Below are positions 2,352 to 25,919 of a stretch of DNA of 41,210 nucleotides, piece after piece. The notes under the pieces are model-generated. The model did not search any database. It worked only from the letters and a program-made list of their open reading frames with translations, and was not told where the DNA came from. The translations under genes and the position numbers were made by a program. Source of the DNA: an uncultured Myxococcales bacterium (GTDB lineage: Bacteria > Myxococcota_A > UBA9042); assembly GCA_903955385.1 (NCBI GenBank), contig CAJBNH010000186.1:1-41210 (forward strand), given 5' to 3'. Position 1 is the stretch's first letter; every line of letters begins with the position of its first letter.

Positions 2352-3436
2352 GCTGCCTCCTTCACACGGCGGACGATTTCGCTCGACGAGGCGAAGCGGT
2401 AGCCCGCGTCACGTGCCACCAACCGCTCGAGAACCGGGATCTGGGCCTCGCGCCGGTCGGGAACGACGATCCACGTCGTCTCTGTGACCTGTCGGTCGTT
2501 CAGGTGGCGGGCAAGGGAGACCGCCGAGCTGTGGTCCTTCACGTCGATGCGCCAGCGCGCCTCGCCGCGTCGAACGTCGAGGTCGTAAGCATCGACGAAC
2601 GGCCAGAGCATGACCGTTGCTCCATCGATTGCGGCGAGCCGCCGTTCGAGGTCGAGCTCTTCGAGTCCAGGCAGCACCGTGAAACGCCAGATGCCGGGCC
2701 GCAGCGCCGCCTTGCCCTGCGCGAGCACCGGGCTGGGAGGGGGCAGTGCGCCGAGCCCGACCAAACTCGCCTCGGAGAGATCGAATCGCGCGCCGGCGGC
2801 AAGGCATGTCTCTGAACGGTGGCAGGATACCAAGGTGCCGTGCACGTGCATTGGCCATCGGCATCGCGGGCAAGGGTAGAACTCGCTCTGCTTGCCACGG
2901 GCAATGACTGCCGCAGGAGCAATGTGGCTGTAAACCTGGGCGAACTCGACGCCGACGCTCTGAGCTGCCGCCGCCGCGGCTGACGACTCCGCGTGCGCGT
3001 GCTCGACGAGGAAGCGCCGAAACGCGGTGTACGCCGCGGCGCCGTCAGCTCGGCCGAGCAAGTGGCGCATCACATCCCTGATGATGCGCTGCTCGATTTC
3101 GGCAAGCGGCGATGTGCCCGCGTCGTCTGCCAGGTCCTGGCAGATGGGCGTCGGCTGACCGCCTTCGACCAGGTTGAAGGCGCCGCCGTCTGGCAGCCAG
3201 TCGGACACCGGCTGTTCGAGGCAGGCGAGCAGGTCAGCCGGCGACAAGGCAGGCAGGCCATAGGATCGACGGGCGCGCGAAGCCCAGGAAGCGGCCAGCA
3301 TCGCGCGCTCGACCAGCGTTCCTCCGGTCGGCACGGCGGCGGATCCGCGCGCGCACCAGGAGGTGGCGGCGAGCGCCGCGAGGGTGAGTGCCTTGTCGCG
3401 GGCGAGGATGTCGGAATGATCAGGCGTGTCGAGCAT
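2348..3436 (-). CDS. PD-(D/E)XK nuclease of PIWI-RE type with zinc ribbon
   Basis: The start ATG 3436 is preceded by GAGGT with good spacing; an upstream in-frame start would overlap the neighbouring gene. The 362-residue protein has a helical N-terminal half. A four-cysteine zinc ribbon follows (C189 and C192 in YPCPRC, then C205 and C211). A C-terminal restriction-endonuclease fold is suggested by VDAYDL (D282) and the IDVKD motif (D298, K300). The order ribbon, then a WPFVDAYDL motif, then DVK matches the nuclease that accompanies PIWI-RE proteins, as I remember the family. In those islands the nuclease, a DinG-like helicase and a PIWI-like protein are thought to act together against invading nucleic acid. 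The gene is intact, but its helicase partner is truncated and no PIWI-RE gene is visible, so it is probably an orphan remnant. Confidence 0.75.
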   Translation of the reverse strand: MLDTPDHSDILARDKALTLAALAATSWCARGSAAVPTGGTLVERAMLAASWASRARRSYGLPALSPADLLACLEQPVSDWLPDGGAFNLVEGGQPTPICQDLADDAGTSPLAEIEQRIIRDVMRHLLGRADGAAAYTAFRRFLVEHAHAESSAAAAAAQSVGVEFAQVYSHIAPAAVIARGKQSEFYPCPRCRWPMHVHGTLVSCHRSETCLAAGARFDLSEASLVGLGALPPPSPVLAQGKAALRPGIWRFTVLPGLEELDLERRLAAIDGATVMLWPFVDAYDLDVRRGEARWRIDVKDHSSAVSLARHLNDRQVTETTWIVVPDRREAQIPVLERLVARDAGYRFASSSEIVRRVKEAA

Positions 3437-3590
3437 GGGGGCGACCTCAATGGGCGGGCGGGTACTCGGTGGTGCGTCCAGAAAGGGGCCAGGCTTGTCG
3501 CGCAAGGTCTCTGCTTTGGAGAAGCGAGGAGCCGCTCCAACGTCGGCCGCGCCTCGTTCGGCTCGGCCACGGTGGAACGTGTAGGCCCGC

Positions 3591-4274
3591 CTACTCCCGC
3601 CCACCCGACCCACCGGTCAAGATCGGCTTGCCCAGGCTCCGCCCGCCAGGCAGCACCACCGGCCCGGGCAACCGAGGCGGTGCCGCGCGCTTCGCCTCGG
3701 GTCGCCCGAACCGCCAAGGCAGCTCCGCATGGAAGCCCGCGCCCTGGGTCTGCCAGTCGACCACGACCGTCACGTCGCCCTTGGGCGCGCGGTCGTAGCG
3801 GATGCGCCAGGTGCGCTCGAGCGAGAGCAACGTCGTGTCGGCGATGCGCTCCTGGGCGTTGCCGGCCGCGAGCCTGGCTCCAGCGGGTAAGCGGATGTCC
3901 ACCTGGATCGGCGCGAGGTCGGGTCGCGCCCGGTCGATCGCGACCCGGAGCTCGATCTCGCCACGTGTCGGTACGGTGTTCGGGCCGGAAAGCCGGACCT
4001 GAATGGGGGACTGCGGGCCCGTAGAGGGCAGGGCGGGCGTCGCCTCAGCAGTGGGCGCTGGCATCGTCGGTGCAGCGGCCGCGGGCTGCAGCGCCGGCGG
4101 TGCGGCGGCAGGCGCGCCGGGAGTGGCCGGTGGTGTCACGACATCGGCTTGCGCGGTACCAGCCGGTGCCGCCGGCGCGACGGCCGCGGTACCCGCCGCA
4201 GGCGACGGCTGGCTGCACGCCAGGGGCAGGAGACATGCGAGGAGCAGAGCGAACTTCAGGAGGTTGTTGGTCAT
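3591..4274 (-). CDS. Lipoprotein paired with the zincin-like protein (copy 1)
   Basis: ATG 4274 begins MTNNLLKFALLLACLLPLAC, a lipoprotein signal peptide with a lipobox ending at the cysteine, so the 227-residue product is predicted to be membrane-anchored outside the cytoplasm. A Pro/Ala-rich linker of about 70 residues follows. The C-terminal part contains beta-strand-like sequence (GEIELRVAIDRARPDLAPIQVDIRLP) and looks like an immunoglobulin-like sandwich. The gene starts 8 bp after the stop of the large cysteine-rich zincin gene, indicating co-transcription. A similar lipoprotein (29059-29595) follows the paralogous zincin gene on the plus strand, sharing the plan of lipobox, linker and sandwich with a 'LP(A/E)GA.L..G' segment. 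I do not recognise a named family. Pairing twice with the same partner suggests a complex or a surface anchor (inference). Confidence 0.75.
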   Translation of the reverse strand: MTNNLLKFALLLACLLPLACSQPSPAAGTAAVAPAAPAGTAQADVVTPPATPGAPAAAPPALQPAAAAPTMPAPTAEATPALPSTGPQSPIQVRLSGPNTVPTRGEIELRVAIDRARPDLAPIQVDIRLPAGARLAAGNAQERIADTTLLSLERTWRIRYDRAPKGDVTVVVDWQTQGAGFHAELPWRFGRPEAKRAAPPRLPGPVVLPGGRSLGKPILTGGSGGRE

Positions 4275-4282
4275 GGCGGGCC

Positions 4283-6823
4283 TCACTTGCAGATCGGGTT
4301 GTTGACGGAGTAGGGCAGCGCGCCCTTTGCGGATTGGACCTTGGCGGCAAGCCCAGGCGACGCACACAACAGGGCGTCCAAGAAGTCGGCGGCGCAGGGC
4401 ACGGGGGTAGAAGTCTTCTGCAGGCCACTGTAGTCACCGGACGGCGACACGTCGTCCCACGAGTACCGCTTGCAGCTGCGCGTAAAGATCCCGTCGTTCA
4501 TCTGGTCGCTGGCCAACGCGGTCCAGAACGCCTTGTTGGCAGCTTCCTTGAACGGCTCGGCACCGTGCGCGGCCGATTGCCACAACAGCGCCGAAACCCG
4601 GTTCTCGTCGACGAACTGCAGCAGGTCGGTGGCCTCGAACGGCCATAGGTAGCCGCCGCTGCCGTACTCCGCGGTATCGAGGCTGAGCCAGAACATGCCG
4701 TTGCCGCCGGGTGAGTAATACACGTCGTCGCCGCGCGCGGCGCTCGAGTAGAACGTCGCCCAGCCTTCGGACCAGCCCATGCCGGGCGGGACCTTGACGC
4801 CGATGTAGTGCTTACCGCCCTCCCCGGGACTGGTGCCGTAGCTTGCCATCGCCCAGTGGCCCATCTCGTGGTGGGTCACCGCGTCGGACATCGGGTGGCC
4901 ACTCGACGACGAGATCCAGACCTGCGACTGCGCCTCGGCGCCGAGCAGCGGGCCGCCCTGGGTGGGCCATGGCGCAAAGCAGGCGCCGCAGTCGAAGTCG
5001 ATGTCGTCCTTGACCCAGACCGCGAGCGTACGGCCGGCATAGCCCCACTGGTTGAGCCAGCCGTTGTAGAAGTCGTAGCGCGCGGCGTTGTACACCTGCA
5101 GGGCTGCGCTTCCTTCCCCGGAGCTGATGTGCCACTTGCCGCTTGCTTTCACCGCCGCCGTGGATGCCGCCCAGGTGTGGGGGTTGCCGGACAGGAAGTT
5201 GTCGGACTCTACCGGTTGCACACCCGCGGGGACCTCGGGCGACAGCACAACGAGACTAGCCTTGTTGGTCGTCTCGTCGTACCCGGCGGCCAGGAGCACT
5301 ACGTAGTCGTACGCGCTCGGGTTCGCGGGCGCCTTCACCGTGAACGATCCGTCCGCGCCCACGAACGTGGCATCGAGGAAGGTCGACGTAGAGAAGTCGC
5401 TGGCGTACCGCACCGACACCACTACGGCGTACACCGGAACCCTTGCCACCGGGGCATCGAGCGCAAACCCGGTGTAGCCCTGGTACGGCAGGATGTGGTC
5501 GTAGGTCACCGTTGCGGTCAGGGGCTTGAGGGGCACTGTCCCCGGGCAACCGACCATCGAACCAAGGCCCGACACGATGCACCCCTCGCACGCCACATCC
5601 TTCCAGGTGCCGTCGTCTTGGCATTCCCGTGCGAGGTTCGCGTTGCCAGGCGCGCAGGTGAGCACGCCCGGCTGGCACGAATCGTTGGCGGGGACACACC
5701 AGGCGAAGCCGGCGCTGTCATCGCAGTACTCGGACGCCGTGCACTCGCCGAACTTCAGCTCCGGCTTCAGGCCGCTGCCCGCCGCGACGGCGCAATAGGC
5801 GTAGGTGACACCGCTGAGGCACTCACCATCGACGGAGATTCCCCCGCACGGGTCGGACTTGCACGACGCGCCACCGTCGGCATCTGAACCACACCCGAAC
5901 GCGCAAGTGAGCTTCGACTCCTGCTTGCCGCAACTGTCATACGCACACAAGTCGTTGCCACAGCACTGGACGGCCGCGCCGGGCGTACACGCGCCGCAGA
6001 CCTGGGCCAGATCCGGGCAGCAGTCGCCGTACTGGCCGCACTGGTCGTCGCACTGACACGTGCCACCTTCGGTGTAGTCGCCACACTTGCCGGCGCAGCT
6101 ATTGGGCGCGACACACAGCCCCTTGGCGTTGCAGGTCTTTCCGCTCGGGCACACGCAGCACGATCCGGCCACACACTGTCCGCCCGCGCCGCACGCGGTG
6201 AAGTCCGGGGCTGGCGCGAACGAGCAACCCTTGCCCGGCAGGCAGGAATCCGTGGTGCACGGGTCGCCGTCCTTGCATTCCAGCTTGAAGATGCCCTTGC
6301 ATTTGCCGTCCGCGCACGCGTCGCCGGTCGTGCAGGGGTCGCCGTCGTTGCACGAGCCCCCTTTGGCAGGCGCGTGCGTGCAGCCGACGATGGGTGCGCA
6401 GCCGTCGGCGGTACACGGATCGCCGTCGTCGCAGGGGTTCGCGCCGATCTGCTTGCACTGCCCAGCGGCACACACCGCGTTCACGGTGCAGGGCGTGCCG
6501 TCCCAGCACTTCTGGCCCTCACACTTGCCGCCACACCCGTCGTCGCACTTGGCGCCGTCGCAGCTGGGCGTGCAGGTTGCGTCGGTCTGACATTTGCCCG
6601 CGGCGGTACACACCGGGGCCGCGTCGGGGCACGAGCCGCAGAAGCCGCCGCACTGGTTGGGGCCGCACTCCTTGCCGTCGCATTGCGGCGTACAGGTGCC
6701 GGGGGGGATGTAGCTGTAGCCGGGACTCGGGGAACTTGGGCATCCGGTCAGAAGTAGGAGCAAGGCGGCCCAAGGCCAAGTGGCGCCGCGAGCGGGAATG
6801 AGCCGGTGCAGAAAGGCAGGCAT
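4283..6823 (-). CDS. Cysteine-rich lipoprotein with HExxH metallopeptidase-like domain (copy 1)
   Basis: ATG 6823 has GGAG 6 bases upstream and starts an 846-residue protein with a lipoprotein signal (LLLLLTGC, C28). Residues 44-240 hold myxobacterial-type cysteine units such as CDGKECGPNQCGGFCGSC and several CxDGDPC repeats. Residues 243-276 (CAGKCGDY...CQCDDQCGQYGDCCPD) match the somatomedin-B pattern. More cysteine modules reach to about 425, then a beta-rich domain to about 540. The C-terminal domain has a zincin motif HEMGH (H652, E653, H656) and a GWSEGWATF segment whose E686 would be the third zinc ligand, 34 residues after H652, as in gluzincins. A CGACFA motif at 612-617 is shared with the paralog at 27563-29026. 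The protein is predicted to be an outer-surface metalloprotease; substrate unknown. It is co-transcribed with the lipoprotein gene that follows. Confidence 0.8.
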   Translation of the reverse strand: MPAFLHRLIPARGATWPWAALLLLLTGCPSSPSPGYSYIPPGTCTPQCDGKECGPNQCGGFCGSCPDAAPVCTAAGKCQTDATCTPSCDGAKCDDGCGGKCEGQKCWDGTPCTVNAVCAAGQCKQIGANPCDDGDPCTADGCAPIVGCTHAPAKGGSCNDGDPCTTGDACADGKCKGIFKLECKDGDPCTTDSCLPGKGCSFAPAPDFTACGAGGQCVAGSCCVCPSGKTCNAKGLCVAPNSCAGKCGDYTEGGTCQCDDQCGQYGDCCPDLAQVCGACTPGAAVQCCGNDLCAYDSCGKQESKLTCAFGCGSDADGGASCKSDPCGGISVDGECLSGVTYAYCAVAAGSGLKPELKFGECTASEYCDDSAGFAWCVPANDSCQPGVLTCAPGNANLARECQDDGTWKDVACEGCIVSGLGSMVGCPGTVPLKPLTATVTYDHILPYQGYTGFALDAPVARVPVYAVVVSVRYASDFSTSTFLDATFVGADGSFTVKAPANPSAYDYVVLLAAGYDETTNKASLVVLSPEVPAGVQPVESDNFLSGNPHTWAASTAAVKASGKWHISSGEGSAALQVYNAARYDFYNGWLNQWGYAGRTLAVWVKDDIDFDCGACFAPWPTQGGPLLGAEAQSQVWISSSSGHPMSDAVTHHEMGHWAMASYGTSPGEGGKHYIGVKVPPGMGWSEGWATFYSSAARGDDVYYSPGGNGMFWLSLDTAEYGSGGYLWPFEATDLLQFVDENRVSALLWQSAAHGAEPFKEAANKAFWTALASDQMNDGIFTRSCKRYSWDDVSPSGDYSGLQKTSTPVPCAADFLDALLCASPGLAAKVQSAKGALPYSVNNPICK

Positions 6824-6899
6824 GGGAACTCCATTGGTGTGCGCAGGCAGGGCAGGAGCAGGAGAGTGTGACGGCACGTCGCGACAGACTGCGTCGCTT

Positions 6900-7097
6900 T
6901 CAAGCGGCCTTGGCTCGAGGGGCATCGGTCGTGGCGGCGAGCCGGGCCGCTCGCAGGGCATCGAGGGCCGCGCGCCAACACCGCGGGCACAAGTCGTGTT
7001 GCGGCCGCCAGCAGGCGTGACCGCGGTAAGTGGAGATGGACCGACGCTGGTTGCAGCCGCTACAGGCTCTGCGATCGGATAGGCGGTGCTTCTTCAT
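6900..7097 (-). CDS. Small zinc-finger-like protein (65 aa)
   Basis: ATG 7097 follows a strong ribosome site, GGGAGGACGAC. The product, beginning MKKHRLSDRRACSGC, has CxxC (C13, C16) and a second pair in LCPRC (C37, C40), with C29 and H34 between them, so it probably folds around zinc. The C-terminal third is an Ala/Arg-rich helix. The gene lies between the three-gene operon ending at 7182 and the cysteine-rich lipoprotein gene starting at 6823, all on the same strand with gaps of 84 and 76 bp. The two CxxC knuckles resemble small treble-clef or ribbon proteins of unknown function. Role unknown; nucleic-acid or protein binding is only a guess. Confidence 0.6.
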   Translation of the reverse strand: MKKHRLSDRRACSGCNQRRSISTYRGHACWRPQHDLCPRCWRAALDALRAARLAATTDAPRAKAA

Positions 7098-10934: not shown

Positions 10935-10963
10935 TTGGCAGGCGGGCGCCATGCCGCTACAGT
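10935..10963 (+). promoter_or_regulatory. Candidate sigma-70-type promoter of the DUF4145-FGE gene
   Basis: TTGGCA (10935-10940) and TACAGT (10958-10963) are separated by exactly 17 bases and lie about 38 bases before ATG 11001. The same TTGxxx-N17-TACxxT arrangement occurs before the genes at 21481 and 27563, which strengthens the reading. Confidence 0.5.
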
Positions 10964-11000
10964 CGCGCTCCCAACGACGGTTGACCAGGACGGGCGACGC

Positions 11001-12533
11001 ATGGCAGGCACACCTCCAAACGGCACGAAGCCCGACCCGGACCGCATTCGGCACTACCTCGAAATCGCGGCCTACTGCGTCGACGAGTGTGCGGAGCATC
11101 AGGCGGAACGGCAGGACGTGTTCCTTTGGAATGCACGTCGAGCCGCCGAGGCGATCCTCTACGCCTTGGCGGACGGCACCGACATCGGCGCGCAGATCCA
11201 TCGCCAGAACAAGGACAAGAAGCCGGTCAACCTCCAGGACATTGCGCAGCAGTTGGTCGAGAAGGAGCGACTGCATCGGCAGGTAGAACCCCTGTTCGAC
11301 GTGATGCGAACCGCCGGGAACCTGGGGGCGCACGCGCAAGCGCCGTCGACGCACGTCGACCAGACGGCGATGGAGAACTGCGCGTTTGCGACACGCCGGG
11401 TGCTCAAATGGACCTATGAAGAGTCGATCCTGAAGCGGCCGATGCCGGAGAAGGTGCGGGCGGCGCTCGAGGACCTCGCAGAGACATCGCCGCACCGCAA
11501 GTCCAAGTACCGGAAGGCTGTAGAGGAACTGCGCACGCTCAGGGAGCAGAGCGCCGGGTTTGCGAAGGAGCACGAGACACTGGTGGCGCTCCTGCGGCGA
11601 TATCAGGGGCAGCCTCCAAGGGGGCGACGGTGGGCTGTGTGGACCGTGACTGCGCTGCTATGCCTCGCTTTGGGGGCCGCCGCGGGGTCTGGGGCGCGAG
11701 ACTTGCTTGCTGGCGTTTCGGCGCCGGCAAGTGCCGAGGCGGCCACCGCGCCGCATGGCGAACCTGCAACTGCCGCTGTCGAGGCGGCCGTTCCGCAGGC
11801 GGCACCGGAGCGGCCGAGCGCAGTCCCCGCCGGCGATCCTCGCCTCGACCCGAACCGGTCGGCGGCTACGATACCACCCGTTGTCGAGGCTCCCTCGCCG
11901 ACCGTGGACGACGCCCCCGCCGCGCCTCCGACCTGTCCGGAGGGCACGGTGGACGTAGCGGAAGATGTGCTCGCCCTCACCACGGGCCCCGGCCGCGATC
12001 GCTGGCCAAAGGCCCCCGCGAAACCCCCGAGGCAGTCCGTTCCGCGGTTCTGTCTCGATGACGGGCCGGTGACCGGCCGCGAGATTCGCGACAACGCTGC
12101 AGCGGACATACAGGAGAGGCTCAAGGCCGAGCCTTCGACCTGCAACTTCCCGCGAGGTGCCTTCACCTACCCGATCAACTGCATCACGGCTGCAGATGCA
12201 GACGCGTACTGCCGGGCCCGGGGTGGCCGCCTGCCCTCGGTTGCCGAGTGGGAAGTCGCGATGCGCGACAAGCCCTCGCCGCGCCTGGACCCCGGTACCT
12301 GGGAGTGGTCGGGAGACCCCTGGCTCAGCCCCACCTTCGGATACAAGCTGGCAGCCGGATCGCCCGTGAACGACGTGCTGTACCTTCTCGGGAGCCTCGA
12401 CCGACCCTACCCCGGCGGTCCCAAGCTCTCCTGGCACCACCGCGCCCTCGCCAAGCCAGGCCTTCCCAAGCTCAGCTTCCGCTGCGCCTACACCCCCGGC
12501 GCGGCGCCCCCGCCTTCGCCCGCCCAACCATAG
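11001..12533 (+). CDS. DUF4145-like / TM / formylglycine-generating-enzyme-like protein
   Basis: ATG 11001 has AGGA about 10 bases upstream and yields 510 residues. The N-terminal ~140 residues resemble DUF4145: an Arg/Ala-rich helix (WNARRAAEAILYAL), LQDIAQQLVEK, and the typical MRTAGNLGAHA. A coiled stretch follows. A single membrane helix lies at about 211-235 (WAVWTVTALLCLALGAAAG), then a Pro/Ala-rich linker to about 310. The C-terminal ~180 residues resemble the FGE-sulfatase (SUMF1) fold, with RFCLDDGPVT and a clear PINCITAADADAYCRARGG, then RLPSVAEWE and WEWSGDPW. FGE-like domains in such proteins often bind ligands rather than make formylglycine. The layout suggests a cytoplasmic DUF4145 sensor with an extracytoplasmic FGE-like domain. 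It is divergent from the sigma-like operon and may share regulation with it. Confidence 0.7.
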   Translation: MAGTPPNGTKPDPDRIRHYLEIAAYCVDECAEHQAERQDVFLWNARRAAEAILYALADGTDIGAQIHRQNKDKKPVNLQDIAQQLVEKERLHRQVEPLFDVMRTAGNLGAHAQAPSTHVDQTAMENCAFATRRVLKWTYEESILKRPMPEKVRAALEDLAETSPHRKSKYRKAVEELRTLREQSAGFAKEHETLVALLRRYQGQPPRGRRWAVWTVTALLCLALGAAAGSGARDLLAGVSAPASAEAATAPHGEPATAAVEAAVPQAAPERPSAVPAGDPRLDPNRSAATIPPVVEAPSPTVDDAPAAPPTCPEGTVDVAEDVLALTTGPGRDRWPKAPAKPPRQSVPRFCLDDGPVTGREIRDNAAADIQERLKAEPSTCNFPRGAFTYPINCITAADADAYCRARGGRLPSVAEWEVAMRDKPSPRLDPGTWEWSGDPWLSPTFGYKLAAGSPVNDVLYLLGSLDRPYPGGPKLSWHHRALAKPGLPKLSFRCAYTPGAAPPPSPAQP

Positions 12534-12595: not shown

Positions 12596-12762
12596 CCGAG
12601 TTGGTCCGCGGTCGATGGAGGTCGCGCTTCCGGAGACCGAGCGCTTGGATGAGCGCTCGATCTCCGCAGGTCACCGTGGCGGTGCCCTGACGCGCCTGTC
12701 CTGTCCGCGGATGCAGGTGTCGGCCCCTCGTGCCGGCACGCACCTCGCATCCGGGGGCGGTC

Positions 12763-15700
12763 ATGGAACTTGCGTCTCGTTCGTCATCCTTGTCCCCCAG
12801 TCCCTCCCGTCTCGTCGTAGTCGTCCCGACGACTGGCAACCGACCGGATCTTCTCGCCCGCTGCCTGGCGTCCGTCGGGGCGCAGACCCTTGCACCGGCA
12901 CGCGTCCTCGTCGCCGTCGACGGCGCGGGCGGCGTCGTCCAGCGCGTCGCGACCCAGGTATCTGCGTGGCTACCCGCGGCAGAGGTGTTGCCGAACACGC
13001 TGACCGCCGGCGCGTCTGGTGCCTGGAACAGCGCGCTGCACCGTCTCGAAGCCTCGGGCGAGCCGATGGACACGCTCGTCAGCTTCCTCGACGACGATGA
13101 CTGGTGGGCATCACACTACCTGGCCGGCGTCGCCGAAGTGGCCGAGGGCGCCGACGCGATCGCGGCGGCTTTCTGGCGTCACGACGCCGACCATCCCGAC
13201 GGCGTCGTGGTCCAACCGCCCGCGGGCCTGTACCCCGACGCGTTTCTGGTCGGCAACCCAGGCGTCCAGGGGTCGAACCTCACCCTGCGCCTGCGAACCT
13301 GGCTCGCGGTCGGTGGCTTCGACGAAGCGCTTCGCAGTTGCACAGACCGCGACATCTGCATCCGACTCGCGGACATCGGCGCCCAGCTGCGCGTGCAGCG
13401 CACGCCAGCGTGCCACCACGACGCGCACCACGGTCACGCGCGCCTGTCTGACCCGGCGTCGGCCGCGAAGCTGGATGGGCTGACCTCCTTCTACCGCAAG
13501 TACCGGTGGCGAATGGCGGAGTCAGTGCGCATTGCCTTCGAGGACCGGGCCAAGAGGCTGTTCGGGTGGGGACCTCCGACCGCAGTCAAGGCTACGATCG
13601 CAAAGAAGCGCAAGCCGCAGCAGACGGAGCGCACGCTGAAGCTCGCCGTCGGCGTGATCGTCGATGGCGACCAGCCCGACCGCGCAACACGTCTCGTCGG
13701 CGACCTCGCGCGCCTCGAGGCCGTGCCGGCCGTCGGTCGGCTGGACGTGATCCTGCTCGAGAACGGCGACCCCGACGGGTTCCGGCGCGTCGTCGATCGC
13801 GCGGAGGGGCTCGGGCTCGCCGTGTGGCCCGTGGCGGGCGCGGTGCAGTGCTCTGTCGCGGGATCGCTGGGCCTCGGTCAGGACCTTGCGCGCAAGAAGA
13901 GCATCGCCGAGTCGCGGACGTTGCTGCAGCGGTTCGTGGCGGCGACGGCGCGGCTGGGCGAGGACACCGTCGGGTGGATCCTCGACGACGACATGCGGCT
14001 GCCGTCGGACCTGGAACTGCTCGTGTCCGACGTACAGCGGGCGCGCGATGCCGGGTACGACGCGGTGATCGGCACCGCCCGCGGCGACCCGCCCATCCCG
14101 GTAGCGGGGGCCGTTCGCACGCAGATGGTGGACCTCGTCCACTTCCTGGCTGGCGCGGCGGTTCGCCATCCCGCCGAGACGCTGTTGCCCGGGGAACAGG
14201 TCAACGCGCCCTGGACCGCCGACCGCCGCGACTACTACCACGACCATCCCCGCGAGGAGACCGACCGACTCGAGTCGCCGTTCATGCCGGTGTGCGACGC
14301 GCCGAACGTGCGCGAAGCGCTGCGTCACGTCGGCAGCAAGTGCCGTCGAATCCTTGCAGGGGAGCAGCTGTTTCGCCCCCTACTTGTGCCCGACACCGAT
14401 CCGGTCGCCGCGGCGCATGACAGCCTGATGCGTGGAGGCAATACGCTCGTGTTCCGACTGGACCTTCTGCGCGAGGCGCCCAATCTGGCGCCGCGCTTCG
14501 GCGCCCGGTTCGCGCGACGTTCCGACACGCTGTGGGCCATCCACGCACGGTACCGGTCGGGCCGGCGCATCGCGGCCATGCCCATCGCGCTCGTGCACGA
14601 CAGGTCCGACGACGTTCGCGTCGGTATCGACATGGGGACGTGGGCCGACGACATCCTCGGACACGCTTTCGCTCGTGCGTACGACGAAATCCTGAAGGCA
14701 CGGCCGCCGGACGCAGGTCCGCTGACCGCCCAGGAGCGCGCGCAGCTGATGACGCGCACGCGCGGACACGTGGACGGGAGATTCGGCCAGTGCCGTCTGG
14801 GCGCACATCGGATTCGCGGGCTCACGAGCGCCGTGCGCAGGACCGCCGATGTGGCGGCACCGACCTGGTGGACGGCCGACCCGGACACGGCGGCCGCGGT
14901 CGCCAACCTGCGCCGGCTGGCAGACGAGGTCGACGAGGCCTTCTCGCCCGCGGCCATCGCCAGACTCGGCGCTTCGTTGCACGACAGGCTGCAGGCCCAC
15001 GGCATCGATGCCTTCCTCGACGAGGTCGAGCGGGCACTGCCGGGGGGACCGGCGGATTCGGTGGAACTCTCGTCCTGGACGCGGGACAGCCGCATCGCCC
15101 GGGCCCGGCGGCTGGTCGCGAAGCACCTGCGCCTGCAAGCGGACGGTGTCTTGGGGCTCGGGGCCGAAGGCGTGGTGCTCGGGGTCGGCGAGCGCGCCAT
15201 CAAGGTCTTCGATCGGTGGAGCCGAAGCTCTCGGGCGGATTCTCTGCCTGCGTTGCGACGCCTGCTCGAAAAGGCCGTCCCCGGGGCGCTCCCGGCCGTC
15301 TACGCCGTCCACGAATGCCGCGAGGCCGTGATGGTCGACATGGAGCGGCTCGACGGTCAGCCCTACCGAGGTGGCCACGGACCGCAACTGCTTGGCATGC
15401 TCAGGGGCCTCGTCCACGCGGGCTGGGTGCACAGCAACGTTCACCCGAAGAACATCCTGCTGACCCGCGCAGGCGCCCGCCTCGTGGACATCGGCAAGTC
15501 GCTCGAGGTCGCCACCGACACGGGCATTGCCGCCATGGTGCGCCGGACCTGGCTGAGTTGGCGCTTCGCGTTCCGCCCGGACCTCAACGAACTGCTGCGC
15601 AGGTCCATCGACGACGACGACTTCGCGGAACTCACGGGATGGCGTGTGCTGCGCGACGCGCTGCCAGATGTCACGGCAAAGGACCGCCTCGACCTCAGGC

Positions 15701-18700
15701 TCGAACACCACGTCCGCGAGCGGGGCGACGCGCGGCTGCTGGACTACGGGTGCGGCAAACCCCGCACGGTTCATCGGCTTATGCCGGCGGACCGCCTGGT
15801 GGCGTTCGACATCGACGCCAACCTGCGCCTGCGTTGGGCACGCGAGCTGCCCGAGGCGCGCTTCGTGGACCTCCCTGCGCTCGACGAGGTGCTGGCCGAA
15901 GGCGCCGAGTTCGACGCCGTGCTGTGCTCGCTGGTGCTGTGCGTGGTGCCGGACGACGACGTGCCGGGCGTGCTGGCCCGTGCGCGTGCGGCGGTGGCGG
16001 GGTGCGGACGCGTCCTGGTGTCGATCTGCGAGCCGACGGCCCTCCACACCGCCGAGTCGGACTACCAGTGCCGCCACGTCGCGCCGGGCGCGCGCTACCG
16101 GGACCGCTTTGCCTACCGGAAGACGGTGCGCGCCTCGGGGCGAGAGCGCATCGACTACCACCGGCCGCTCGACTGGTACCGGCGTGCCTTCGCGCGGGCC
16201 GGATTCCGCGTGGCGGCCGAGGAGACCATCGATGGCCTCGACGTGCAGCGGTTCGAGACGATGCCCGAGTTCCGGGTCTTCCACCTCGAACCGCTTCCGG
16301 CGGTTGGCGTTCGCACTTCGCTCGTCATCAAGGCGTGCGCGATGGAAGCCGACTCCCTCGACGCGATCATCCGCCACCAAGTGACGCAAATCGGTCGTCC
16401 GCGGGCGTTCGACGAGGTGGTCGTCGCGCTCGATCCCCATGCGGGTCCGTTTCCGCGGTCCTGGCACCCGGGGCAGATTCACCGGGTCGATACGACGCTC
16501 TCGCGCTTGCAGGCGGAAGGGGTGATCGACCGCGTGATCCGGGGACCTGAGGAAGGCGCGGGCGCACCCCTCAGCGAGCGGTGGTTCGGCCTCGACCACG
16601 CCGGAACCCACGTCGCCAACGGTCAGGCCGCGCTCGCGTTCCTGCACGCGGTCGAGTCGTGCACGGGCGACCTGATCCTGCACCTGGACGCGGACATCCT
16701 GATCGGCCGGCCCGACGCCGACGCCGACTTCGCGCAGGAGGCGGTCGACACGTTTGCCGCGCATCCCACCGCCGTAACGCTCTCGCTGCCGGTGCACGGC
16801 GACACCACACGTCCGCCGAGCGATGGCGAGGGTGGTGTGCCGTTTCGCGTCGAGGCGATGGTCGGCTGGATCCATCGCTCTCGCCTGCTCGCCCTTCGTC
16901 CCCTGCCGAACACCTTGCATAACGGTCGGTTGGCGTTGCCATGGCACAGGTCGCTGGACGTGCACGTTCGCCAAGGCGCCGCGTTGTCGCTGCGCAAGGG
17001 TTCGCAGGCACTGTGGTTCACGGGCATCGACAACGCGCGCAAGCCCAGACTCGCCGAGCTGCACCTGCTGGTCGACCGGGTCGAAGCCGGCTTCGTGCCC
17101 GACGGACAACGCGGTCAGCCGCTCCTCACCGGACCTGGGACCGACTGGCTGGGGCCGGTACGCAGGGAGGACCTGGTCGTCGTCGTGTGCGGGCGCAATG
17201 TGCCGCCGGGACGGGTCAGGCGCTGCTTTGACTCTTTGGCGGCGCAGCAGGGCGCGGCCTGGGCGGCAATCGTCGTCGACGACGCCTCGGACGACGGGTG
17301 CGCTGAGACCGTGACGGCCGCGTGTACTCGTTTCGGCGACCGCGTGACCTACGTGCGCCAACGCGAGCGGCAGGGATTGCTGGCCAACACCGCGCTCGCG
17401 ATTTCACGCCTGTGCGCCAATCCCGACGCCGTCATTGCCCTTCTGGACCTGGACGACGCCCTGGGCACGGCCAATGCGCTGGCCGAAGTGGCACTGCGTC
17501 ATCGCGACGGCGCGGACGTGACCGTCGGATCGATGGTGCGGACCGACAAGCACGCGGCGTATCCGGTCGACTTTGCCTTGGCCCGAGAGCATCGCGGCGG
17601 CAACGTCTGGCAGCACCTGCGATCGTTCCGCAAGCGACTGTTCGATCGGATCGCAGTGGAGGACCTCCGGCCGGGCGGCGAATGGGTGGACCTGGCGAAC
17701 GACTGGGCGTTCATGCTGCCGATCGTCGAGATGGCGGAACACCCCGTCCACATCGCTCGGCCGCTGTACCTGCACGAGCCGTCGACGCGGCGTCCCCAGG
17801 ACGAGCGAGACCGGCGAGAGGCCGTCGTCGCGGACATCGTGCGTCGGCCGAGCTACCGCAGTGCGGAGCGGGCGTTCCGGCCGCTCGAGACGATGACCAC
17901 GCTTTGCTACCACCGGGTGGTCGAGGACGTGAACGAGCCCTTGGCGCGTCTCTACGCGCGGCGGGGACTCGCCGTGTCGCTCGCGACCTTCGCGCAACAG
18001 ATGCGTTCGGTCATACGCCGTTTCTCGCCGGTAGGCTTGCGTGACGTGGTGCGAGCGGTCCGAGGCGAGTCGCGCCTGCCGGAGCGCGCGTTGCTGGTCA
18101 CCTTCGACGACGGCTACCGCGACTTCATCGACCTGGCGGTACCGGTACTGGCGCGGTCCGGCGTGCCTGCGGTCCAGTTCGCTCGAGTGCCAGAGGCGGA
18201 CGGGCTGCCCTCGTGGGCGCCGCTCGACCTGCTGCGGGTCCTGTTGGTCGAGGCCGGTGTGTCGGCCGAAGATGCTGTGACGGAGGTCTCCGGTGATGCG
18301 CGCGCCGCGCTCCTGCGACTGCCGCACGACGAGCAGCTCCGCGCCATTCGGGAGCGGGCAGGGTGCCTCGGCATCGACATCGACCGATTGGACCGCGGAC
18401 AGCTCTATGCCGGTTGGTCTCGGCTCCGCGACCTTCGTCGGATCGGCATCGACCTCGCCGGCCATGGGGTCGCCCATGAACGATGGACAGAATTGAAGCC
18501 TCATCACCTTACCGAGGCCGCCCGCGCGACGGCGTTGTGGCTCGAACGAGCGGATTTGCCGCGGGTCATGGCCTGGCCCGACGGCGCGGTGAGCGACGAC
18601 ACGGTTTCCGCCGTACGCCAGGCGGGGATCGACTTGGCGTTCGCCCTGCACGACGTGCCGACGGGCGTTGCCGACCAGTGGGCGATTCGCCGGGTCCTCG

Positions 18701-18762
18701 TGCCAGACGACCCGGACTTTCTGGACCAGCTTGCCACCGATGCGCAGAAGGAGGCCGCATGA
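12763..18762 (+). CDS. Giant multidomain glycosyltransferase/kinase-like/methyltransferase/deacetylase
   Basis: ATG 12763 is chosen (G-rich stretch upstream; an in-frame GTG lies at 12730), giving 1999 residues. Domains visible in order are as follows. GT-A-like domain 1 is at ~15-255 (VVVVPTTGNRPDLLARCLAS; DDDD at 110-113). GT-like domain 2 is at ~290-680 (WILDDDM, D408-D410). A kinase-like fold lies at ~795-930, with GLGAEGVVLGVG, AIKVF (K814), HSNVHPKNILL (890-900) and LVDIGKS (D909). A class I methyltransferase is at ~985-1180 (LLDYGCGK, 992-999). GT-like domain 3 is at ~1185-1460 (HLDAD, 1307-1311). GT2 domain 4 is at ~1470-1700. A NodB polysaccharide deacetylase is at ~1713-1990, with TFDDGY (D1782, D1783) and H1901/H1905 as metal ligands. 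No membrane segment is seen. It probably builds and trims a modified glycan on a carrier or surface polymer. It is coupled to the LOG gene by ATGA. Confidence 0.8.
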   Translation: MELASRSSSLSPSPSRLVVVVPTTGNRPDLLARCLASVGAQTLAPARVLVAVDGAGGVVQRVATQVSAWLPAAEVLPNTLTAGASGAWNSALHRLEASGEPMDTLVSFLDDDDWWASHYLAGVAEVAEGADAIAAAFWRHDADHPDGVVVQPPAGLYPDAFLVGNPGVQGSNLTLRLRTWLAVGGFDEALRSCTDRDICIRLADIGAQLRVQRTPACHHDAHHGHARLSDPASAAKLDGLTSFYRKYRWRMAESVRIAFEDRAKRLFGWGPPTAVKATIAKKRKPQQTERTLKLAVGVIVDGDQPDRATRLVGDLARLEAVPAVGRLDVILLENGDPDGFRRVVDRAEGLGLAVWPVAGAVQCSVAGSLGLGQDLARKKSIAESRTLLQRFVAATARLGEDTVGWILDDDMRLPSDLELLVSDVQRARDAGYDAVIGTARGDPPIPVAGAVRTQMVDLVHFLAGAAVRHPAETLLPGEQVNAPWTADRRDYYHDHPREETDRLESPFMPVCDAPNVREALRHVGSKCRRILAGEQLFRPLLVPDTDPVAAAHDSLMRGGNTLVFRLDLLREAPNLAPRFGARFARRSDTLWAIHARYRSGRRIAAMPIALVHDRSDDVRVGIDMGTWADDILGHAFARAYDEILKARPPDAGPLTAQERAQLMTRTRGHVDGRFGQCRLGAHRIRGLTSAVRRTADVAAPTWWTADPDTAAAVANLRRLADEVDEAFSPAAIARLGASLHDRLQAHGIDAFLDEVERALPGGPADSVELSSWTRDSRIARARRLVAKHLRLQADGVLGLGAEGVVLGVGERAIKVFDRWSRSSRADSLPALRRLLEKAVPGALPAVYAVHECREAVMVDMERLDGQPYRGGHGPQLLGMLRGLVHAGWVHSNVHPKNILLTRAGARLVDIGKSLEVATDTGIAAMVRRTWLSWRFAFRPDLNELLRRSIDDDDFAELTGWRVLRDALPDVTAKDRLDLRLEHHVRERGDARLLDYGCGKPRTVHRLMPADRLVAFDIDANLRLRWARELPEARFVDLPALDEVLAEGAEFDAVLCSLVLCVVPDDDVPGVLARARAAVAGCGRVLVSICEPTALHTAESDYQCRHVAPGARYRDRFAYRKTVRASGRERIDYHRPLDWYRRAFARAGFRVAAEETIDGLDVQRFETMPEFRVFHLEPLPAVGVRTSLVIKACAMEADSLDAIIRHQVTQIGRPRAFDEVVVALDPHAGPFPRSWHPGQIHRVDTTLSRLQAEGVIDRVIRGPEEGAGAPLSERWFGLDHAGTHVANGQAALAFLHAVESCTGDLILHLDADILIGRPDADADFAQEAVDTFAAHPTAVTLSLPVHGDTTRPPSDGEGGVPFRVEAMVGWIHRSRLLALRPLPNTLHNGRLALPWHRSLDVHVRQGAALSLRKGSQALWFTGIDNARKPRLAELHLLVDRVEAGFVPDGQRGQPLLTGPGTDWLGPVRREDLVVVVCGRNVPPGRVRRCFDSLAAQQGAAWAAIVVDDASDDGCAETVTAACTRFGDRVTYVRQRERQGLLANTALAISRLCANPDAVIALLDLDDALGTANALAEVALRHRDGADVTVGSMVRTDKHAAYPVDFALAREHRGGNVWQHLRSFRKRLFDRIAVEDLRPGGEWVDLANDWAFMLPIVEMAEHPVHIARPLYLHEPSTRRPQDERDRREAVVADIVRRPSYRSAERAFRPLETMTTLCYHRVVEDVNEPLARLYARRGLAVSLATFAQQMRSVIRRFSPVGLRDVVRAVRGESRLPERALLVTFDDGYRDFIDLAVPVLARSGVPAVQFARVPEADGLPSWAPLDLLRVLLVEAGVSAEDAVTEVSGDARAALLRLPHDEQLRAIRERAGCLGIDIDRLDRGQLYAGWSRLRDLRRIGIDLAGHGVAHERWTELKPHHLTEAARATALWLERADLPRVMAWPDGAVSDDTVSAVRQAGIDLAFALHDVPTGVADQWAIRRVLVPDDPDFLDQLATDAQKEAA

Positions 18763-19325
18763 ACGCCCGACGACCGATGCTTGCGATTGTGGGAGATGCC
18801 GGAGCCCAGCGCGATTCAGAGACCTGGCGTGCCGCGAGTGATTTGGGGCGCCTGGCGGTCGACCACGGGTACCGGGTCATCTGCGGCGGCATGGGCGGCG
18901 TGATGGAGGCCGCTTGCCAGAGCGCTCATGCGTCACCTGTCTACCGCGAGGGGGATACCGTGGGCATCCTGCCGGTCGGCGATCCGAGTTGGGCCAACCC
19001 GTGGGTCGACATCGTGCTCGCGACGCACCTCGACACGGGCCGCAACGCGCTCGTGGCAAACGCCGATGCGGTGGTCGCGGTAGGCGGCGGGGCCGGCACG
19101 CTGAGCGAGATTGCCTACGCATGGCAGTTCAAGCGCCTGATCGTGGCGCTCGACGTGCCGGGCTGGGGACGGCGTCTTGCCGGCGAGCGGGTGGACCATC
19201 GCCTGCGGTACGAGGAGATCTCGGATGATCAGGTGTTTCTGGCGCGGGATGCGGCGGAGGCGATCGCGATCCTGGCGGTGCGGCTTGGGCAGTACTCGAA
19301 GCGGTATGCTGGGTTTGGGCGGTAG
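18759..19325 (+). CDS. LOG/SLOG superfamily protein (TIGR00725-like)
   Basis: The ATG overlaps the TGA of the giant gene (ATGA), so the two are translationally coupled. The 188-residue protein starts MNARRPMLAIVGDAG and shows the Rossmann-like features of the family: VICGGMGGVMEAA (residues 40-52), GRNALVANADAVVAVGGG, and the GGGAGTLSE motif (109-117), with R95 and N96 before it. LOG proteins cleave cytokinin-type ribotides, while TIGR00725-type and other SLOG proteins bind nucleotide-derived ligands; these are family facts. Which applies here is unclear, since the LOG catalytic PGGxGTxxE is GGGAGTLSE. Coupling with a glycan-modifying megaprotein suggests a role with a nucleotide-sugar or related ligand (inference). 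Confidence 0.75.
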   Translation: MNARRPMLAIVGDAGAQRDSETWRAASDLGRLAVDHGYRVICGGMGGVMEAACQSAHASPVYREGDTVGILPVGDPSWANPWVDIVLATHLDTGRNALVANADAVVAVGGGAGTLSEIAYAWQFKRLIVALDVPGWGRRLAGERVDHRLRYEEISDDQVFLARDAAEAIAILAVRLGQYSKRYAGFGR

Positions 19326-23006: not shown

Positions 23007-25733
23007 CTACCCCGTCTCCGCCACCGAGCTCGCGAGATCCAGCCGCACCAGATCCAGCAACTCGCGGTCGGACAGCTCGGTCAGCGACACCTCGCCGCCG
23101 GTTTCCAGCATCGCGTCCGCCAGGTTACGCTTGCCGGCGATGAGGGCGTCGATGCGCTCCTCGACCGTGCCACGGCACACGAGCTTGTGCACCAGCACGT
23201 TGCGCTTCTGGCCGATGCGGAACGCGCGGTCGGTCGCCTGGTCCTCGACCGCCGGGTTCCACCACCGGTCGAAGTGCACCACGTGCGAGGCAGCCGTCAG
23301 GTTCAGGCCCGTGCCGCCCGCCTTGAGCGACAGCACGAAGAATGGCACCGCCGGGTCGTCCTGGAAGCGTGCGACGAGCCTGGACCGCTCGCGGATCGGC
23401 GTATTGCCGTGCAGCACGAACCCCGGCTGGCCGAACACGCCTTGCAGGAACGCGTGCAGGGGCGCCGTCGTCTCGCGGAACTGCGTGAAAACCAGGAGCT
23501 TCTCCTGGCGATCGGCGATCACTTCCGCGATCTCGTTCAGGCGCGCGAACTTGCCGCTGTCGCCGGGCTGCCACCCGCCGTCGCCCAGCCATTGCGAGGG
23601 GTGGTTGCAGATCTGCTTGAAGCGCATCAGGAACGACAGCACGACCCCGCGCCGCTCGATGCCGGACGCTTCGGCAAGGCGCGTGCGCAGGTCCTCCACC
23701 GCCTGGGCGTAGAGCGCCGCCTGCAGCTTCGAAAGGCCGCAGAACGCCTGGACCTCGGTCTTGTCCGGCAGGTCGGCGATGACGGTTCGGTCGGTCTTGC
23801 GCCGTCGCAGCAGGTACGGCTGCACGAGCCGGCGCAGCGGGGCGTAGCCGTCGGGCGTCGCGTCGATCCGTTTGCTGTAGCGGGTGAATTCCGCGGCGGT
23901 GCCCAGGAGCCCCGGATTCAGGAAGTCCATCAGCGACCACAGGTCGCCCAGGCGGTTCTCGACGGGCGTGCCGGTCATGGCGACGCGCGCCCGGGCATGC
24001 AGTGCCTTGACCGCTCGGGTCTGGCGCGTCCCCGGGTTCTTGATCGCCTGGGCCTCGTCGAGGACGCACAGCCGCCAGTGCACCGACCGCAGCGCCTCGT
24101 CTCGCAGGACTGTGCCGTAGGTCGTGATCACGAGATCCACGTCGCGCAGCGCAGCGTCGTCCCAGGCGCGTAGGGCCACCGCCGGTGCCGCCGACGCGTG
24201 GGCCACCCTCAACCGCAGCGTGGGGGCGAAGCGCGCGGCCTCGGCCTGCCAGTTGCCCAGCAGCGACGCGGGCGCGACCACGAGCGCGGTCCCGCCGCTG
24301 CTCTCGCGCTTGAGCGCCAGCAGCAAGGCAAGCAACTGGACCGTCTTGCCCAGGCCCATGTCGTCGGCCAGGCACGCGCCCAAGCCGAGCCGGGTCAGCA
24401 GATGCAGCCAGGCAAGGCCATGGCGCTGGTAGGGCCGCAGCGTCGCCTGCAGCTCGTCTCCCGGCTCGACGGCTGCCAGGTGTCCCGCCGGGTCGCGCAG
24501 GCCGGCGAGTGTCTGCTCCAGCCACGGCCCGCACGCGACCTCGCTCCAGGCCCGCGCGTCCGCATCCATGCCTGGCGTGCTGCCCAGGTCGGCACCGGAA
24601 ACCAGACGCAGTGCCTCGTGAAACGTCAGACCGCCGGCGGCCGCGCGGGACTCGACGGCCTCGTAGTGCTGCAGCATCGCCTGCAGGCGCGTGCGGTCCA
24701 CCTCAACCCACTGCCCGCGCAACAGCTGCAGGCCGTCCACGCCGCTCAGCAGCTGCTCGGCCTCGGTGCGGGTCAGCGGCTCGCCATCGAGCGTCAGGCC
24801 GACTTGGAAATCGAGCAGCGCGTTGACGCCCACCTCGCCCTTGCTCACCGTGCCGACGCTCGCCGTGACCTGCGGGCGCGTGGGACGGCCGTTGCGCCAG
24901 GTCCCGGGCATCCGCACGAGCAGACCGGCGTGCTCGAGGGCCGGCACCTCGCGCAGGAACTCCAGGGCCTCGGCCGACGACCAGCGCACGGGCGCGTAGA
25001 GTTCGCCGGCAGCCACCCTGGCCCGCAGCCACTCGCTTTGCTCCGATGCCCGCTGGACCGGCTCCAGCAACGCCAGCAGCCCCCGCTGGTCACCGGACGC
25101 CGCCGCCTCGCGCACCGCTCGCCCAAGCGGCAGGTGCTGAGGGCGTGCCGCTGCCGACAGGCGCGTCGTGTAGGTCGCCAGAAACGCAAACGGCAGGTCG
25201 GGGTCGCCCTTGTGCTCGGCGAGGTTCAGGTGCACCCGCCCGACCGCATGCCAGGACGGGTGCTGCGCAGCGAGCCAGCCGTGGCAGGCGGACAGGCCGC
25301 CACCGTCGGCGATGTCGGACAGGGCGTGGTCGAGGTCGGTCCACAGGCGTGCGAGCACCTCGACATCAAGGTACTCGGCGCCAGGGAAGGGCGGCGCGGT
25401 CAGCGCGAGGCCGGGCAGGTCCTCCAGCGGCACGGGGACTTGCGGGACCAGACCGGGCTCGGACTCGGGCTGGCGGCGCAACGCTGTCAGGTAGCGGACG
25501 GACAGGTCCCGCCACCACGCCCAAGGCTGCGGCAGGGCGGTGGCCACTTCGGCGGCGCCGAGTGACAGGAGGCCGTGCCCCGGTCCGCGCGCAAACGGCT
25601 CGCGCACGCGGGCATCGACGGCTTGGGCGAGTTCCGGAGCGTCTGGCACGGGCCGCAGGTACAGCCGGCCTTCTGGCGTAAGGGCGGGGATGACGGGGGC
25701 GGTGGGCACGACGGGCAGGCTGGGCCGCATCAT
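23007..25733 (-). CDS. SNF2-family DEAD/DEAH-box ATPase
   Basis: Start ATG 25733 (MMRPSLPVV; ATG 25730 is equally possible) gives 908 residues; the frame continues upstream only into unlikely Arg-rich sequence. The N-terminal ~430 residues are the family-specific extension. The SNF2 motor follows. Motif I is DDMGLGKT at about 456-463, then VVAPASLLGNW, ITTYGTVLRD, and DEAQAIKNP (motif II, about 558), and MTGTPVENRLGDLWSL. The second RecA lobe has VFTQFRET, LSLKAGGTGLNL and QATDRAFRIGQ (motif VI, about 830). All core motifs are intact, so it should be an active double-stranded DNA translocase or remodeller. It lies 48 bp upstream of its SWIM-finger partner and divergent from the nucleotidyltransferase gene. 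Confidence 0.92.
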   Translation of the reverse strand: MMRPSLPVVPTAPVIPALTPEGRLYLRPVPDAPELAQAVDARVREPFARGPGHGLLSLGAAEVATALPQPWAWWRDLSVRYLTALRRQPESEPGLVPQVPVPLEDLPGLALTAPPFPGAEYLDVEVLARLWTDLDHALSDIADGGGLSACHGWLAAQHPSWHAVGRVHLNLAEHKGDPDLPFAFLATYTTRLSAAARPQHLPLGRAVREAAASGDQRGLLALLEPVQRASEQSEWLRARVAAGELYAPVRWSSAEALEFLREVPALEHAGLLVRMPGTWRNGRPTRPQVTASVGTVSKGEVGVNALLDFQVGLTLDGEPLTRTEAEQLLSGVDGLQLLRGQWVEVDRTRLQAMLQHYEAVESRAAAGGLTFHEALRLVSGADLGSTPGMDADARAWSEVACGPWLEQTLAGLRDPAGHLAAVEPGDELQATLRPYQRHGLAWLHLLTRLGLGACLADDMGLGKTVQLLALLLALKRESSGGTALVVAPASLLGNWQAEAARFAPTLRLRVAHASAAPAVALRAWDDAALRDVDLVITTYGTVLRDEALRSVHWRLCVLDEAQAIKNPGTRQTRAVKALHARARVAMTGTPVENRLGDLWSLMDFLNPGLLGTAAEFTRYSKRIDATPDGYAPLRRLVQPYLLRRRKTDRTVIADLPDKTEVQAFCGLSKLQAALYAQAVEDLRTRLAEASGIERRGVVLSFLMRFKQICNHPSQWLGDGGWQPGDSGKFARLNEIAEVIADRQEKLLVFTQFRETTAPLHAFLQGVFGQPGFVLHGNTPIRERSRLVARFQDDPAVPFFVLSLKAGGTGLNLTAASHVVHFDRWWNPAVEDQATDRAFRIGQKRNVLVHKLVCRGTVEERIDALIAGKRNLADAMLETGGEVSLTELSDRELLDLVRLDLASSVAETG

Positions 25734-25858
25734 GCGGCGGAGGCCGCGGCGTAGCACGGGCGGCGGTGCACGGGCAAGTGGGCGGGCGGCTGCGGGGCAC
25801 GCTCCGACTCGCCGAACGCAGACTTGCGCGAGTCGCCCTCCACGATCTCTATGCAACA

Positions 25859-25919
25859 CCACGACAATCCGTGGGAACATCAGGTTTTGTATCCCATTGG
25901 ATTCGATCTTGATGGATAC
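25859..25919. promoter_or_regulatory. Two inverted repeats in a divergent intergenic region
   Basis: The 250-bp region between the SNF2 gene and the nucleotidyltransferase gene has two operator-like inverted repeats. CCACG and CGTGG are spaced by 6 bases (25859-25874). GTATCCCAT and ATGGATAC (25889-25897 and 25912-25919) match except for one extra base. The stretch 25880-25940 is clearly AT-richer than its surroundings, as expected of a control region. No promoter with good spacing stands out. Confidence 0.4.

Follow-up and report, generated by a model that had tools for sequence, protein, structure and literature searches.

A single gene of an uncultured Myxococcales bacterium encodes a protein of 1999 residues in which four GT-A glycosyltransferase domains, a protein-kinase-like domain, a class I methyltransferase and a NodB-type deacetylase are joined in one chain, and the adjoining gene encodes a SLOG cluster-4 (SLOG-4) protein whose pairing with this megaprotein is conserved across distant lineages. 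In a sister system, a related glycosyltransferase/kinase module is accompanied instead by GTP cyclohydrolase II (GCHII), NADAR, AsnB-like and NAT-like genes. Our best reading is that the locus resembles a natural-product assembly line and not a capsule locus, and that it belongs to a horizontally spread cassette that is scattered through bacteria and archaea. We tentatively propose, at a confidence somewhat short of even, that this self-contained cassette makes a soluble, multiply glycosylated, methylated and deacetylated compound, with the SLOG protein handling a nucleotide-derived building block.

An intact gene in its genomic setting

The window analysed here is the entire 41,210-base contig, which comes from a 5.3-Mb draft genome, and its features are collected in Table 1. 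The megaprotein reading frame is stop-free throughout, an alternative GTG start at 12730 would lengthen the product to 2010 residues, and GC content by codon position is even from end to end. By hydropathy, neither the megaprotein nor the SLOG protein has a convincing membrane segment; a candidate membrane anchor at the hydropathy peak at residue 1043 of the megaprotein was rejected, as this peak falls inside the methyltransferase core.

Table 1. Features of the megaprotein–SLOG locus (window positions; motif numbering by residue of the encoded protein)
Feature	Position	Strand	Description and motifs	Basis
Megaprotein ORF	12763..18762	+	1999 aa; GT1-GT2mid-KIN-MT-GT3-GT4-DEAC	
GT1	12796..13608	+	GT2-family GT-A domain; LDDDDWW aa 109-115, TDRD aa 194-197, nearly invariant	PF13641/PF00535; conservation in 27 sequences
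GT2mid	13618..14862	+	GT-A domain without Pfam match; WILDDD aa 405-410, RGGN, RRSD	AF2, Foldseek
Linker	14863..15084	+	All-helical, GT2mid to kinase-like domain	AF2 secondary structure
KIN	15085..15666	+	Protein-kinase-like fold; G798xG800xE802G, K814, N892 at catalytic-Asp position, N897, D909xG911	
MT	15670..16302	+	Class I SAM methyltransferase; LDYGCGKP aa 993-1000	Methyltransf_11, profile
GT3	16303..17157	+	GT-A domain without Pfam match; D1309xD1311	AF2 pLDDT 93.8; Foldseek glycogenin, collagen galactosyltransferase (ColGalT1), WrtF
GT4	17158..17862	+	GT2-family GT-A domain; LLDLDD aa 1560-1565	PF00535
DEAC	17863..18759	+	NodB/PgaB-like deacetylase; D1782-D1783, H1901xxxH1905	PF01522, partial PgaB TIGR03938, alignment
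Shine-Dalgarno-like	18749..18754	+	AGGAGG, four bases before SLOG start	Sequence
SLOG	18759..19325	+	SLOG cluster-4 protein, 188 aa; R95, GGGAGTLSE aa 109-117	PF18306, TIGR00725

Could so long a frame be a sequencing artefact that joins separate genes, as the initial annotation feared? Two intact, full-length orthologues (G012 and G015), both from one other genus within the host's family, are 59% identical to the window protein, each has a SLOG gene immediately downstream, and related architectures occur in several phyla. The orthologues already refute misassembly. Although the relatives come mostly from MAG contigs, the GT1-to-GT4 order is repeated in independent genomes, those of the isolates Roseovarius autotrophicus and Pseudotabrizicola sediminis among them, the megaprotein dN/dS is 0.16–0.32, and the catalytic motifs are kept; an assembly artefact or a functionless, decayed gene fusion is, in our judgement, barely conceivable.

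No RNA families or tRNAs were found within the window. Its minus strand carries DinG-like and pPIWI-RE REase/Y genes that are part of a pPIWI-RE defence island (993–3613), a protein that combines Dictyostelium CTDC repeats with a somatomedin B domain (4283–6961), an SNF2 helicase with DUF3670 that matches ZorD/DpdE/DrmD models (23007–25880) and a PKD-domain protein (34992–36791). Directly upstream of the megaprotein, on the plus strand, lies a gene (10935–12533) whose product has DUF4145-like and FGE-sulfatase-like stretches, and proteins resembling it occur near two of the related loci (L012 and L062).

Glycosyltransferase, methyltransferase and deacetylase domains

Pfam finds two GT2-family domains in the megaprotein, the NodB deacetylase and a methyltransferase near the cut-off; PF00535 scores 94 bits over the two stretches that correspond to GT1 and GT4. 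GT2mid and GT3 have no PDB match by sequence in an alignment-profile search. The AF2 models of these regions are confident, however, with a pLDDT of 92.3 for GT2mid together with the kinase-like domain, and both glycosyltransferases match GT-A enzymes, GT2mid finding GlfT2 (1.2e-6), hyaluronan synthase, RmlT and AvpGT by Foldseek. DxD-type motifs are kept in all four domains across 23–27 distant members, which makes four sugar transfers plausible.

The fold neighbours of GT3 (Table 1), glycogenin and the collagen galactosyltransferase among them, bring to mind an enzyme that modifies a macromolecule, be it protein, tRNA or lipid, by stepwise glycosylation, with the SLOG protein as regulator or acceptor. 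A single chain would suit successive work on a bound acceptor. GT-A folds are, however, shared by unrelated acceptor classes, and no conserved acceptor gene is linked to the megaprotein, the SLOG gene aside; we consider this explanation quite improbable.

For the methyltransferase, Methyltransf_11 is barely at its Pfam cut-off, and a profile built from an alignment of 27 relatives and run against the PDB gives 3e-13. The deacetylase (PF01522, 41.6 bits) has the TFDD motif with D1782 and D1783 and the HxxxH metal ligands H1901 and H1905, and thus the D/H/H metal site that had been claimed for it. Only members of the window's clade have it attached after GT4, as an addition specific to that clade; in other members a separate gene encodes it, SLOG is its fusion partner (L044) or it is missing, and most relatives have it separate or not at all.

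The kinase-like domain and comparison with polysaccharide terminators

A kinase profile from the same 27 relatives matches YabT at 4e-8 and retrieves 1382 PDB sequences at E<=1, and Foldseek matches of the domain include CDPK1, PknI and WbdD (4azs, 4.6e-5). The kinase and methyltransferase folds, whose failure to appear in domain searches would have undone the initial annotation, are thus both present, and its seven-domain chain is borne out by profiles and by AF2/Foldseek. The positions expected of a protein-kinase-like fold, G798, G800, K814, N897 and D909, are conserved; indeed the G-loop, Lys814, Asn897, Asp909 and the glycine motif of the methyltransferase are invariant or nearly so in 27 sequences. 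The catalytic Asp, in contrast, is replaced by Asn892. Of the 51 kinase-like domains scored, which include the window's and cover both systems, 47 have this Asn, the exceptions being Asp in three archaeal loci (L055, L060 and L073) and Ser in L015.

An Asn kept so strictly points to a function under selection, but of what kind? In the Klebsiella O7 ORF6 kinase, changing the catalytic Asp abolishes activity (PMC11231755), and ordinary phosphotransfer by the megaprotein domain therefore cannot be assumed from its sequence; phosphorylation is a putative activity, and the earlier description of the glycan as phosphorylated finds no support in a domain that so regularly has Asn at this position.

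The adjacency of kinase-like and methyltransferase domains invites comparison with the enzymes that terminate surface polysaccharides. In a scheme of the WbdA/WbdD or O7 ORF6 kind, the glycosyltransferases would polymerise, the kinase and methyltransferase would add a methyl-phosphate cap, and export genes would lie elsewhere. The methyltransferase does directly follow the kinase-like domain in the chain, WbdD is among the Foldseek matches of the latter, and the NodB domain is nearest to PgaB. The closest proven architecture is moreover that of Klebsiella pneumoniae O7 ORF6 (MT-kinase-GT-GT; PMC11231755), which also unites, in one chain, a methyltransferase, two glycosyltransferase modules and a kinase missed by sequence searches; it makes a surface polysaccharide, which, by analogy, would count against a soluble product. 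Yet O7 ORF6 has two glycosyltransferases and not four, places its methyltransferase before the kinase, requires the catalytic Asp and contains a coiled-coil ruler, and it stands in an O-antigen locus with an ABC exporter in which neither SLOG nor a NodB domain is described. WbdD of E. coli O9a (PMC3482155; PDB 4azs) shares the kinase–methyltransferase pair, but it lacks glycosyltransferase domains, has the reverse domain order and ends in a coiled-coil C-terminus. No such ruler is seen in residues 286–968 of the megaprotein, which together with GT3 make up the modelled part and in which the longest helix has 42 residues. The megaprotein thus has a kinase-like domain and a methyltransferase in one chain, as a methyl-phosphate terminator does, but not the catalytic Asp that the O7 kinase needs.

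Export genes are likewise not a regular feature of related loci. Among 119 neighbours, sampled within about 5 kb of relatives and resting on crude, script-made gene calls that give absences less weight than presences, no exporter, flippase or polymerase family is recurrent, Wzx, Wzy and ABC exporters included, in line with the earlier remark that no transporter, Wzx or Wzy gene is near; an exporter may still lie at a distance in the genome. Nor is a flippase, polymerase or initiating transferase found in the Pfam matches of the tested window genes or among recurrent neighbours. The conserved SLOG protein, finally, has no role in a polymerase-terminator scheme, which is the main rival to our reading but which we regard as unlikely.

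The SLOG partner

As initially annotated, the partner gene starts on an ATGA, overlapping the megaprotein gene by four bases at 18759, with AGGAGG upstream. The description of its product as LOG-type, by contrast, is not supported. PF18306 (9.4e-28; 97.2 bits against a cut-off of 26.3) and TIGR00725 (5.7e-29) far exceed PF03641 and the LOG equivalog model, and in the PDB the nearest solved relatives are Moco carrier proteins (MCPs), with LOG enzymes scoring lower. The protein has Glu117 and Arg95, a GGG in place of the LOG PGG, and an Arg-to-motif spacing that is one residue shorter. MCPs are excluded from LOG in a LOG structure paper, Ala replacing the catalytic Arg (PMC5379747), and with MCPs the closest in the PDB we therefore use the name SLOG-4; judged by its sequence, the partner is best classed as an MCP-like SLOG cluster-4 protein and not as a demonstrated LOG. 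It resembles MCPs (PDB 2iz5 and 6y01) in profile family and in the R-N/D and GGxxGTxxE region, but no molybdenum-cofactor gene was found linked to it, and it stands in a fixed operon or fusion with a glycosyltransferase megaprotein. With the LOG cytokinin riboside 5'-monophosphate phosphoribohydrolases it has the superfamily and the Glu of GTxxE in common; its score is weaker there and the motif differs, and a hydrolase role is putative.

The pairing itself is real. SLOG adjoins a methyltransferase-bearing module in 25 of 30 loci, as against one of 26 loci without a methyltransferase (Fisher 6e-10; about 4e-7 after close relatives are taken out), counts that exclude three loci truncated where the contig stops and that come from loci of shared ancestry, not from independent events. 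Across 16 loci, SLOG and megaprotein distances are correlated (r=0.87, Mantel p=0.0005), and in a Bacilli MAG (L079) the two proteins are fused, so that the coupling first proposed for this one locus is conserved. Five of the 30 methyltransferase-bearing loci have no adjacent SLOG, one of these genomes having a close SLOG-4 elsewhere. Lone close relatives of SLOG-4 also occur away from the glycosyltransferase module (L143, on G382:C5, L131 and L132), and in L016, a split form of the system, SLOG-4 is fused to a P-loop (AAA_33) domain (5306–6433, plus strand).

Distribution, neighbours and the sister system

In a scan of genomes of 84,980 species, the same domain order, complete or minus the deacetylase, was found in Myxococcota, Planctomycetota, Pseudomonadota, Bacteroidota, Bacillota and Thermoplasmatota, isolates included; Spirochaetota yielded a form that lacks GT3. 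Where the protein is split, its parts remain clustered (L016, L048, L049, L061, L133, L134 and L136), as the initial annotation had asked of split homologs. A viral origin was considered and rejected: IMG/VR gave just weak glycosyltransferase matches, and phage records none.

Recurrent extra genes have the character of tailoring enzymes and were counted in favour of a soluble glycoside. A short sugar-nucleotide-dehydrogenase-like gene, without a Pfam match to the C-terminal domain, lies beside seven members (L042, L043, L047, L050, L051, L060 and L079), an epimerase adjoins L048 and is fused in L054/L063, radical SAM genes occur in L043, L047, L055, L073 and L011, carbamoyltransferases in L073 and L081, and a histidine-phosphatase domain in L055.

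If the megaprotein and SLOG made a toxic or signalling nucleotide-derived compound, they might constitute an anti-phage or inter-microbial conflict system. The pPIWI-RE and ZorD/DpdE-like genes in the window, a few other loci near defence-type genes (BrxC/D-type among the 119 neighbours; L133), the patchy distribution and the ties of SLOG and NADAR families to conflict systems (PMC7824862) are all consistent with this idea. On the other hand, there is no recurrent defence partner by PADLOC, the counts of which are swamped by generic kinase models, or by Pfam, unrelated cargo also gathers in defence islands, and neither protein has an effector or nuclease domain. We find a conflict system improbable.

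In the sister system, a GT1-KIN-GT2mid (or GT1-GT2mid) module, without SLOG and without methyltransferase, is adjoined by an AsnB-like gene, a NAT-like gene and GCHII, which either forms one protein with NADAR or has it as a neighbour (L064, L065, L067–L069, L071, L072, L074–L078, L010, L056, L057, L059, L137 and L138), in hosts that include Vibrio, Psychrobacter, Photobacterium, Shewanella, a Pseudoalteromonas plasmid, Planctomycetota and Uabimicrobium. One glycosyltransferase/kinase module thus pairs with either methyltransferase plus SLOG or GCHII-NADAR plus AsnB and NAT, and the two sets were never seen together in one locus. GTP cyclohydrolase II and the NADAR N-glycosidase are known from the riboflavin pathway; their fusion, found beside this module in the sister system, is absent from the window's locus, and open-access papers yielded no description of the GCHII/AsnB/NAT gene set. 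Because SLOG and GCHII-NADAR both belong to nucleotide-handling families, we infer that SLOG handles a nucleotide-derived part of the product. NADAR and SLOG are also met with in the biology of NAD and ADP-ribose, so that readings besides nucleobase handling may apply.

A candidate assembly line and its implications

How might such a protein work? In the soluble-compound reading that we prefer, a cytosolic megaprotein would build a soluble glycoside or oligosaccharide, its four GT-A domains transferring sugars in turn. The methyltransferase would cap or decorate the product, the kinase-like domain may bind ATP and either phosphorylate by an atypical mechanism or gate assembly, and the NodB domain, in this clade, would take off an N-acetyl group. 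SLOG-4 would bind or process a nucleotide-derived building block, either an acceptor or a donor fragment, a role that GCHII and NADAR may fill in the sister system. The envelopes of the hosts (Thermoplasmata, Bacilli, Planctomycetota and Myxococcota) are very unlike one another, which argues against reliance on the export system of any one envelope. A more specific version, which we think possible but doubtful, is that of an undescribed class of mobile one-protein lines, common to bacteria and archaea, to a multiply glycosylated nucleotide-derived compound, with an Asn-for-Asp kinase-like domain and with SLOG-4 and GCHII-NADAR as interchangeable entry modules.

Blasticidin draws on a free base plus UDP-GlcA. 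Nucleoside antibiotic pathways (blasticidin S; AvpGT) have in common with the present system a nucleotide-handling enzyme, GT2-family glycosyltransferases and tailoring enzymes, but the likeness is confined to logic and to the GT-A fold, the nucleoside glycosyltransferase AvpGT (PMC11959488) being a match of GT2mid. In open-access papers we found no known system that combines SLOG with a glycosyltransferase, a methyltransferase and a deacetylase. We consider the system an undescribed variant among glycan-assembly enzymes of several modules, and there is a fair chance of its lying further from known systems.

If the proposal is correct, the cassette would represent a compact, portable system for making glycosides that is found across two domains of life and whose product can be tested for. 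The active site of its kinase-like domain would be an unusual one, SLOG cluster-4 proteins would gain a functional setting, and the occurrence of the same core with either of two nucleotide modules would offer a clear handle on what that core needs.
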